Shown piece after piece: positions 25,820-28,982 of a stretch of 33,354 nt of DNA (positions within the stretch are counted from its first letter, which is position 1; the number at the start of each line of letters is the position of its first letter). The stretch lies in the IMG/VR virus record IMGVR_UViG_3300023296_000836, positions 1 to 33,354 of that record; one strand, given 5' to 3'. The stretch is from a virus. Under the pieces are notes generated by a model. The model was not told the origin of the DNA, ran no database searches, and saw only the letters and a program-made list of their open reading frames with translations. The position numbers and the translations under genes are program-made.

Positions 25820-28495
25820 CTACCTTCCCATCCAAGATTTGCCCGACTTCTGATCTTGCAGCTTGCGCATCCAGTCCGGCACCGTGTCGGCCGAGGCCGC
25901 TTTCGGCCATTCGATCGGGAAGTCCGGGTCCAGAATCCGCGCCTTGGCGTCCAGGATGTCGTCGTGCTTGACCACCGGGAACGCCAGGTACTCTTCCTGC
26001 ACAAACGATCGCGTCAGATTGACCGCCTTGCCTTCCCAATCGGTCCGGACGATCGATTCAATCTCGAACCAGCGACCGTTCTCGTAGATCGGTATCAGCT
26101 TCTTGATGCGGTCCTGCTTCGAGAGCGGCCCGCTCAACGGTACGATCGTGAACCGATAGTTTTTGTCTTCCTGGACGTACTCGATGTGCTCGATGTCGGC
26201 TTGCAGTCCGTATTCTTCGTAGCCGACCTTGATCGGCTTCCACTGCCTATGCAGCGCAAACAGCGTATCCGTGCGCTCTGTCAGGTTGAGGCGGTCCCGC
26301 ACCCTGTCCAAGGTGTAGTAATTTTGATCGGCACCAAGGCCGATGACCTCCATGACCGTATAGTCCAGGTCCGCCTTCTTGGCGTGTTCGCTGCGCGCCG
26401 TATTGCCGCCGGCCTGCCGTGCCTTCCGACCCGACGCCGGATCGACGAGGATGTAGACGTTCAAGCCACGTGCGTGACCGCCCGGCCAGTATTTAAGCCA
26501 CTCCTCTTTGAAGCCCTGCGACTTGTCGGCGACCGGATCCAAAAGCATCTGCGCCCCGAACGTGTATGGCCCCTGCGTCTTGCGCTTTTCCTGCAGCCAC
26601 TCCGACGAGCGGAAGGCGCAATTCTCAGGCGCGAAATTCTCGCTGCCGTCCAGCGTGCACGGATGCAGCCGAACCGTGACGACGTCGCGCTCGTCCATCA
26701 CCGAGTAGGTGTCGAACAAGTGATAGCGCGTGCCGATATAGCGGACCCACCCGCCTTCCGTGCCCAGGTTGTCCGAGAGCTCCCACATGCGCGTGGTCTT
26801 GTTGATCTGCTCGGCCGTGCCGACTGAGTCTTCGGTCACCACGTCGTCGTAGACGCGGATGTAAAAGTGTGCGCCCGTCGGCATGCCGTCGACGAGACCG
26901 TGACCCTCGACGGTGGCTTCCTTCGGGTTGGTCTTGCGCCGGACCGTGATGCCGTTCTGCACCGACCACGACGGCGCTTCCTTAACGCTTTGCCACAACA
27001 CGTCCGGAAACAAGGCCTTCAAGTCGCCGTTGTTCTCGAACTCCTGCTTGATCTGCGACAGGAAGTCCGTCGCGATCGATTTGTTGTGCGAAAAGATGCC
27101 GACCGTCACTTCGCGGCCGTTGTATCTTGGTTCCGGATGGCCGCCGTGCGAGGCGAGAACGTCCTGAATTGTCAGCCCGAACGTGATAATGGTCGAGTTA
27201 TGCGTCGGCACCATTGCCCTACCGACCAAGTAAAGCCCGTCCGGTCGATCCACCTGAATGCAGGACCCAGGCTTCGGGGCAACCCGCTCGATGGATACGA
27301 TGTACCTGCGCGGCGCTGGCCGCTCGCCCTCTATGCACCGCGCCAGTTTCCGCTTGAGCCGAAACGGCGGCAGTGACGTATATGCCTGAAACGAGACCTG
27401 CCAATACGGATAGGGTTCGCCTCGGACGGTTCCAATGTGCTGACGGCGGCGCGGCTTGAGCCCCAGCGAGTGACAAAGCTCAACGAAGCCGTCAACCAGC
27501 CGCTCGTTGATGTTTACGAACGTCGCTGTTCCGCGCGTGTTGCAATGGCCGTCCGTATCCATGAGCCCTTGCAGCAACGCGATACGCTGCGCCAGCGACG
27601 CCCTCAGATACTCCGGCGGAATCGCCTTCTGGTCGCGAATACCGAGTGCCTTGAGAGCCGCTGAAAGCCCTTCGACGCAACGATACTGCGCCTTTCGGGC
27701 CGGCGTTTTGTCGTGGCCCAATGCGTAACCTGCGGCCCTGATTTCTTCGAACACCTCCGGATCGCCGCTGGTGATACTGCCACCGCCGCGGCTGCCGTCT
27801 CCGAGCCAAACGCCAAGCGTATATGGGTTGATCGAAAGATCAGCCTCCGGAAGCTGCAACGGCCCGGCCACCGGCACGGCAAGTCTGTTGTCCGGCCTAT
27901 GGTCATGCGCCGCAATCTCGCGCGTCGAAAGCGTCACGGTCTCGCGGTATAGGCGCTGCCCACCGGCGCCACGCCTTCGCGTGCGGCGCTCGACGGCCCA
28001 AAGATGGTCATCTCCGGTGACGATCTTGAAACCGTCGTCAAACGTCAGCCGGTACTGCGGCGGCGCCTCGAATACCTCCGTCCGCGCCACGACGCGGCAA
28101 GGACGGCCGTCGCCTCCAAAGATCGTGTCGCCGGGCTCAAGATCGCCGTGGCGCGCCCAGCCGGTTGGTGTCGGCACGGGTTCGTCGATGCGGCAGAGCT
28201 TATAGTGCTCTCTCGCCCACAGGTCCAAGCGGCCGTTCGGTTCCGCCTGCACCTCTCGACAACGAGCGAAAAGCCAATCGTGGTTCAGGTCCGGCCGGTG
28301 CAGCAAAACGACCAGCAAGAAAAACAGGTCGTTCCGCGCCAGCCACCGCTTCGCCTCCTCGATGAAGGTGAAACTGTTTGTCTTTCGACCGGCCTCTAGG
28401 GCCTCTGCATCCTTGTCGGCCGCTTCCTGCAGGACGGATTTGTAGAACTCAATGGACGCTATCCTGGTCTTTGGTAGGATGTCCGGTAGCGCCAT
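25820..28495 (-). CDS. terL: Terminase large subunit with embedded intein
   Basis: 891 residues from ATG 28495 (a TTG at 28504, nearer to GAGGAG, is also possible). Removal of a 334-residue intein leaves a 557-residue protein, normal for terminase ATPase-nucleases. The N-extein (1-99) ends WAREHYK and the C-extein begins STIITFG, so splicing restores a HYKST P-loop. Walker B is FYIRVYDD (residues 544-551), followed by TEDS. The nuclease domain shows YILVDPASG (acidic residue ~685), a conserved LDYTVMEVIG strand, and HDD (844-846) near the end. The enzyme pumps DNA into the procapsid through the portal and cuts concatemers. The gene overlaps the small terminase gene by 47 nt. The intein blocks ATPase function until splicing. 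Confidence 0.95.
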   Translation of the reverse strand: MALPDILPKTRIASIEFYKSVLQEAADKDAEALEAGRKTNSFTFIEEAKRWLARNDLFFLLVVLLHRPDLNHDWLFARCREVQAEPNGRLDLWAREHYKLCRIDEPVPTPTGWARHGDLEPGDTIFGGDGRPCRVVARTEVFEAPPQYRLTFDDGFKIVTGDDHLWAVERRTRRRGAGGQRLYRETVTLSTREIAAHDHRPDNRLAVPVAGPLQLPEADLSINPYTLGVWLGDGSRGGGSITSGDPEVFEEIRAAGYALGHDKTPARKAQYRCVEGLSAALKALGIRDQKAIPPEYLRASLAQRIALLQGLMDTDGHCNTRGTATFVNINERLVDGFVELCHSLGLKPRRRQHIGTVRGEPYPYWQVSFQAYTSLPPFRLKRKLARCIEGERPAPRRYIVSIERVAPKPGSCIQVDRPDGLYLVGRAMVPTHNSTIITFGLTIQDVLASHGGHPEPRYNGREVTVGIFSHNKSIATDFLSQIKQEFENNGDLKALFPDVLWQSVKEAPSWSVQNGITVRRKTNPKEATVEGHGLVDGMPTGAHFYIRVYDDVVTEDSVGTAEQINKTTRMWELSDNLGTEGGWVRYIGTRYHLFDTYSVMDERDVVTVRLHPCTLDGSENFAPENCAFRSSEWLQEKRKTQGPYTFGAQMLLDPVADKSQGFKEEWLKYWPGGHARGLNVYILVDPASGRKARQAGGNTARSEHAKKADLDYTVMEVIGLGADQNYYTLDRVRDRLNLTERTDTLFALHRQWKPIKVGYEEYGLQADIEHIEYVQEDKNYRFTIVPLSGPLSKQDRIKKLIPIYENGRWFEIESIVRTDWEGKAVNLTRSFVQEEYLAFPVVKHDDILDAKARILDPDFPIEWPKAASADTVPDWMRKLQDQKSGKSWMGR
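27197..28198 (-). mobile_element. Class 3 intein with LAGLIDADG homing endonuclease in terL
   Basis: 334 residues, from Leu (after Lys99 of TerL) to Asn; the next residue is Ser. Block A: LCRIDEPVPTPTGW. Block B: TGDDHLWAV, with His65 and Trp67 (intein numbering). Endonuclease block C: YTLGVWLGDGS (126-136); block E: LLQGLMDTDGH (208-218), both with the catalytic-type Asp. Block F: GSCIQVDRPDGLYLVG with Cys313. Block G: PTHN with Thr332, His333, Asn334. Trp, Cys and Thr in these places are the W-C-T set of class 3 inteins, in which the block F Cys makes the first attack and no N-terminal nucleophile is needed. An alternative class 1 start at the Cys one residue later would leave an extra Leu in the P-loop, so is less likely. 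Confidence 0.9.
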
Positions 28496-28982
28496 GACGA
28501 CCAAATATCTCCTCTAGCTCGGCCAGAACGTCACCGCGAGACACCACCTCTTTTGTCTCGACTGGCCCGCCGTCCTTGCCGGTCAATTCAATTTGCCGCT
28601 TGCTTTCGTAGTGCCCGCCGACCTCTTTCGCGATCTGCTCATAAAGCTGCGCCGCCGCCAGGTGGTTATTGCGCCCGGCCATGACCTTGGCCGCCGCCGC
28701 TAGGTTGCGCACCCTTACCGCCTTCGATGCCTCGGGGATTGAGTCCAGGTCATTGAGGTACGATTCCCGCGCCCGGAAGAACTCGGTTTTCAGTTTCTTA
28801 CCCAGCCGCTCGCCGGACATCTTCGTTGGGTCGTAGCTTTCGACGCGCTGCGGCGTGATTTCTTTGCCGAATTGCAGTTGGAAGGCCTTGGCCACCGACG
28901 TCGGCGGCTCATACGCCGCAAGCGCACGCACCAAAAAGAGTTTTTCATGGTCCGTGAGGACCGTGGTCGCTTTTCGTCCCAT
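28449..28982 (-). CDS. terS: Terminase small subunit, DUF2280-like
   Basis: 177 residues. The N-terminal half matches the DUF2280 pattern: LTDHEKLFLVRALAAYEPPT, a helix-turn-helix region (SVAKAFQLQFGKEITPQRVE), then SYDPTKMSGERLGKKL, FFRARESYL, and IPEASKAVRVRNL. The second half has AAAKVMAGRNNHLAAAQLYE and EQIAKEVGG, followed by a flexible acidic tail. Proteins of this type sit directly before terminase large subunits and are thought to recognise the packaging site on DNA. The gene overlaps terL by 47 nt, which implies coupled synthesis of the two subunits. Confidence 0.8.
   Translation of the reverse strand: MGRKATTVLTDHEKLFLVRALAAYEPPTSVAKAFQLQFGKEITPQRVESYDPTKMSGERLGKKLKTEFFRARESYLNDLDSIPEASKAVRVRNLAAAAKVMAGRNNHLAAAQLYEQIAKEVGGHYESKRQIELTGKDGGPVETKEVVSRGDVLAELEEIFGRHGATGHPTKDQDSVH

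Follow-up and report, generated by a model that had tools for sequence, protein, structure and literature searches.

A phage large terminase with a putative class 3 intein in its Walker A motif

An intein splits the large terminase reading frame

The window, our term for the whole stretch of DNA that was analysed, is a 33354-base virus record from IMG/VR. On its minus strand the ORF translation gives one uninterrupted frame (28504-25820) of 894 codons with no stop inside, and this frame is a large terminase gene split in frame by a 334-residue intein. The C-terminal part was identified as large terminase by profile comparison (PHROG 38, 9.1e-38) and the same window encodes a major head protein as well as a P22-like portal protein, so that family profile and gene context both place the frame among the large terminases. 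The first-pass annotation had located an intein at 27197-28198 within the terminase, and the open frame, the length of 334 aa and the exact bounds bear this out. The features of the locus are:

28449..28982, minus strand: DUF2280 gene, upstream of the terminase (PF10045, 2.5e-25; PHROG 546, function unknown)
28199..28504, minus strand: N-extein of the large terminase subunit; its last residues, ...LDLWAREHYK, take in Walker A as far as Lys; same block in ~150 intein-free relatives
27197..28198, minus strand: putative class 3 intein, 334 aa, Leu1...Asn334 with His65, Trp67, Cys313, Thr332 and His333 (sequence, relatives, structure model)
28193..28195, minus strand: Cys2 codon TGC, an alternative class 1 start, unsupported by the junction and the relatives
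27998..28006, minus strand: block B core His65-Leu66-Trp67, cat ctt tgg (alignment of relatives)
27434..27811, span approximate, minus strand: LAGLIDADG homing-endonuclease core, motifs LGVWLGDGS and LLQGLMDTDGHC (Pfam LAGLIDADG_3; PI-SceI fold)
27260..27262, minus strand: block F Cys313, tgc, expected initiating nucleophile (alignment of relatives)
27197..27205, minus strand: block G Thr332-His333-Asn334, acg cat aac (alignment of relatives)
25820..27196, minus strand: C-extein of the large terminase subunit, starting STIITFG, nuclease domain and stop included (PHROG 38, 9.1e-38)

The intein begins with LCRIDEPVPTPTGW directly after ...LDLWAREHYK and ends with MVPTHN directly before STIITFG. 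The DUF2280 gene occupies the place of the small terminase subunit and, judged by this position, may take that role. A second IMG/VR contig (L002) holds an identical copy of the intein, with 9002/9002 bases the same, and may come from the same sample or population as the window.

The junction lies between the P-loop Lys and Ser

To find intein-free loci we scanned viral contigs and species genomes by C-extein alignment. Ser or Thr comes immediately after Lys (HYK-ST, HGK-SS and similar) in the 152 loci classed as intein-free, a set that is not dereplicated and includes a few rows, such as L075, that are unclear upstream. The nearest terminase (L033, ~69-70% identity) has no intein and reads REHYK-STIITFGLSIQ, while another intein-free locus found via its C-extein (L026) reads LDIWAREHYKSTIITYAKSIQ. 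Since Lys and Ser are adjacent in the intein-free relatives, the junction is HYK^L...THN^ST, and the earlier proposal that the intein splits the P-loop exactly between these two residues holds. That proposal had itself named an extra Leu after the Lys in intein-free relatives as one observation that would overturn it; neither a Leu nor any other residue stands between the P-loop Lys and Ser in the ~150 such relatives, and the claim survives. It had also held that splicing would yield HYK-ST as a proper P-loop. The HYK-ST product is as predicted, but the motif is a degenerate Walker A, HYKS here and HGKS in five relatives; because these five read HGK-SS, we take HYK-ST to be the Walker A Lys-Ser of the family with the usual Gly replaced.

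The intein carries the class 3 signature

The published class 3 signature consists of Trp at B:12, Cys at F:4 and Thr at G:5 (PMC5222942, PMC7664689). Some class 1 inteins also have Cys at F:4 (PMC4031507), so that this residue is by itself not diagnostic. The window intein has Trp67 at block B position 12, Cys313 (in SCIQV) at block F position 4 and Thr332 (in PTHN) at block G position 5, together with Ser at +1 and, as residue 1 of a junction set by intein-free relatives, Leu in place of Cys, Ser or Thr. Tori and Perler are said to have widened the class 3 definition in 2011. The catalytic His65 is likewise present, and experimentally tested class 3 inteins have His65 and Trp67 under the same numbers as the window intein (PMC5222942).

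In an alignment of 20 relatives of the intein, taken from several kinds of host protein, His65, Trp67, Cys313, Thr332, His333 and Asn334 are invariant. A wider set comprised 111 frames in the same register, of which 110 were scorable, one row being gapped at each position. His65, Cys313, Thr332 and Asn334 are each present in 110/110 of these and Trp67 in 108/110. Residue 1 varies (Ala 58, Leu 14, Gly 9, Asp 6, Cys 2, Ser 2, plus others) and the +1 residue is Ser in 59, Thr in 46 and Cys in 2. Judged from these alignments, the conservation of the signature residues is far from chance. The three residues that the first-pass annotation had assigned to blocks B, F and G are thus all present and invariant or nearly so among relatives, and its Leu as first residue agrees with both the intein-free junction and the structural register described below.

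The AlphaFold model, for which the window intein was combined with 20 relatives, reached a pLDDT of 90.9. At full length the predicted model matches PI-SceI (Z 28.6, 331 residues), with a splicing domain plus a LAGLIDADG endonuclease, and in its register Leu1 and Asn334 coincide with the first and last residues of solved inteins. The splicing domain of the model lies within 1.4-1.8 A of Mycobacterium class 3 DnaB inteins at 40-42% identity, compared with about 12-21% identity to class 1 splicing domains. A sequence search against solved structures gave the same picture, as the class 3 DnaB inteins 6rix, 6riy and 6bs8 were matched at values between 4e-22 and 3e-21, with His65 and Trp67 in register, and the class 1 gp41-1 intein at just 0.25; by the best solved-structure matches, the closest kin are therefore class 3. 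For the endonuclease, Pfam LAGLIDADG_3 (PF14528) scores 25.9 bits against a cut-off of 22.5, and the two motifs and the fold matching PI-SceI identify a LAGLIDADG homing endonuclease. NCBIfam comparison gave weak cross-matches only.

Several relatives vary this pattern. L274 and L275 contain WCT inteins in which the aligned residue 1 is Cys, possibly a mixed class 1/class 3 signature. In two inteins at the terminase site that the window intein occupies, the penultimate His is replaced by Arg in L105 (PTRN) and by Phe in L125 (PTFN), with the WCT residues retained. The L007 intein (1859-2728) is shortened to 290 aa and has Asn in place of the first LAGLIDADG Asp (LGNG) with its splicing residues intact, a sequence that suggests a likely decayed endonuclease. 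Lys occupies -1 in 101/109 scorable class 3 relatives, among them one at a Cas4 nuclease site in L196 (VDYK^T), which is not a P-loop. This hints that the intein itself may prefer Lys at -1, and the near-constant Lys before class 3 inteins, even outside the P-loop, offers a small testable lead.

Alternative readings of the intein

Position 2 of the intein is a Cys, and as class 1 inteins start with Cys, the element could be read as a class 1 intein that starts there and leaves an extra Leu in the P-loop (HYK-L-ST). The added residue would break Walker A, however, and the ~150 intein-free relatives have no such residue. Cys2 is moreover not conserved, being found in 1/16 inteins compared at the site (the window intein only), with Leu1 seen without Cys2 in L105 (LEPLTNE), and the register of the predicted model sets Leu1, not Cys2, on residue 1. 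We consider a Cys2 start extremely improbable. Class 1, with Cys, Ser or Thr as residue 1, was rejected on Leu1, the Cys2 start being excluded by the junction; class 2, which calls for a KlbA orthologue with Ala1, Cys+1 and Ser at G:6, was rejected because the host is a terminase, not KlbA, and the intein has Leu1, Ser+1 and His at G:6. Within a class 3 intein there is a slight chance that Cys2, one residue off the scissile bond, pairs with Cys313 or shares the acyl load, which would make splicing redox-controlled or its first step a hybrid one. For mycobacterial DnaB, class 3 splicing is reported to be sensitive to oxidation (PMC6195587). An unrelated P-loop protein (GEGK^T) in L019, from 769 onward, has an intein starting LCR as in the window intein.

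Alternatively, the intein could be decayed and non-splicing, with the terminase dead or working as two pieces. Decayed class 3 inteins exist, reportedly as in Arsp-FB24 Arth_1007 (PMC3196547). In the window, however, no splicing residue is lost, both LAGLIDADG motifs are preserved and the frame stays open over all 894 residues. Tailed phages need the large terminase, and decay of an element within this essential protein is very unlikely. We hold it highly probable that this phage large terminase is interrupted in its Walker A motif by a class 3 intein with a LAGLIDADG endonuclease.

Proposed splicing and mobility

For a class 3 intein at this junction, His65 and Thr332 would activate the block F Cys313, which would attack the Lys-Leu1 bond and form a branched thioester, from which the N-extein would transfer to Ser+1 of the C-extein (class 3 mechanism: PMC5222942, PMC4031507, PMC7664689). 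Cyclisation of Asn334 would free the intein, and an acyl shift would then produce the native ...HYK-ST... bond. In the precursor 334 residues separate the P-loop Lys from its Ser, so that ATPase activity should need splicing, and the first-pass claim that packaging ATPase activity depends on it is a sound inference. If the intein is active in this phage, its endonuclease would be expected to spread the element by cleaving terminase genes that lack the intein at their conserved P-loop codons.

The distribution of the intein over the terminase family is scattered. A terminase tree of 167 rows has 17 intein-bearing tips and 16 state changes (shuffles mean 16.4), and intein and extein identities are uncorrelated (Mantel rho about 0, p 0.46; rho about 0 also without L015), in a test that is biased because a separate intein search supplied the intein-bearing loci. 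This scattered distribution fits lateral movement between phages to the same site (homing). A second intein site is seen in the TerL ORF of L186, where the HGK-SS P-loop is intact and a different, class 1-looking intein (CLSPDTEI...DGYCSKN) lies between GTRYHF and SDTYG.

Comparison with known inteins

Inteins of this kind are already well known from such sites. Among mycobacteriophages, terminases host inteins most often, and TerL1-a inteins between the P-loop Lys and Thr were described in 2016 (PMC5050341). Class 3 inteins had been called rare in the first-pass annotation, but a 2020 count in nr reached 1701, of which 82.5% have LAGLIDADG motifs (PMC7891396). Given the TerL1-a site and these 1701 class 3 inteins, the window intein adds to an already known type. 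It offers a clean class 3 case at the classic P-loop site, in a terminase family many of whose members lack the intein, and should be useful for tracing how inteins move between phages and in the search for active class 3 inteins.

By host gene and site the window intein resembles mycobacteriophage TerL1-a (PMC5050341), both lying in a phage large terminase, after the P-loop Lys and before the hydroxyl residue that follows it, although terminase family and host group differ and +1 is Thr there and Ser in the window. The Mycobacterium DnaB inteins (MchDnaB1, 6rix/6riy; Msm DnaB, 6bs8) share His65, Trp67, the block F Cys, the THN end and a non-nucleophilic residue 1, and their class 3 splicing domain is 40-42% identical to that of the window intein; their host, however, is a replicative helicase, and the solved ones are mini-inteins without endonuclease. 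Among annotated phages, WCT inteins are found in the terminase/exonuclease gene 2 of Gordonia phage Zipp, the terminase of Rhodobacter phage RcDurkin and the Cas4 of mycobacteriophage Traft412. These resemble the window intein over their whole length, including the endonuclease (38-40% identity), and in Lys at -1, Ser/Thr at +1 and THN, whereas their exteins are unrelated.
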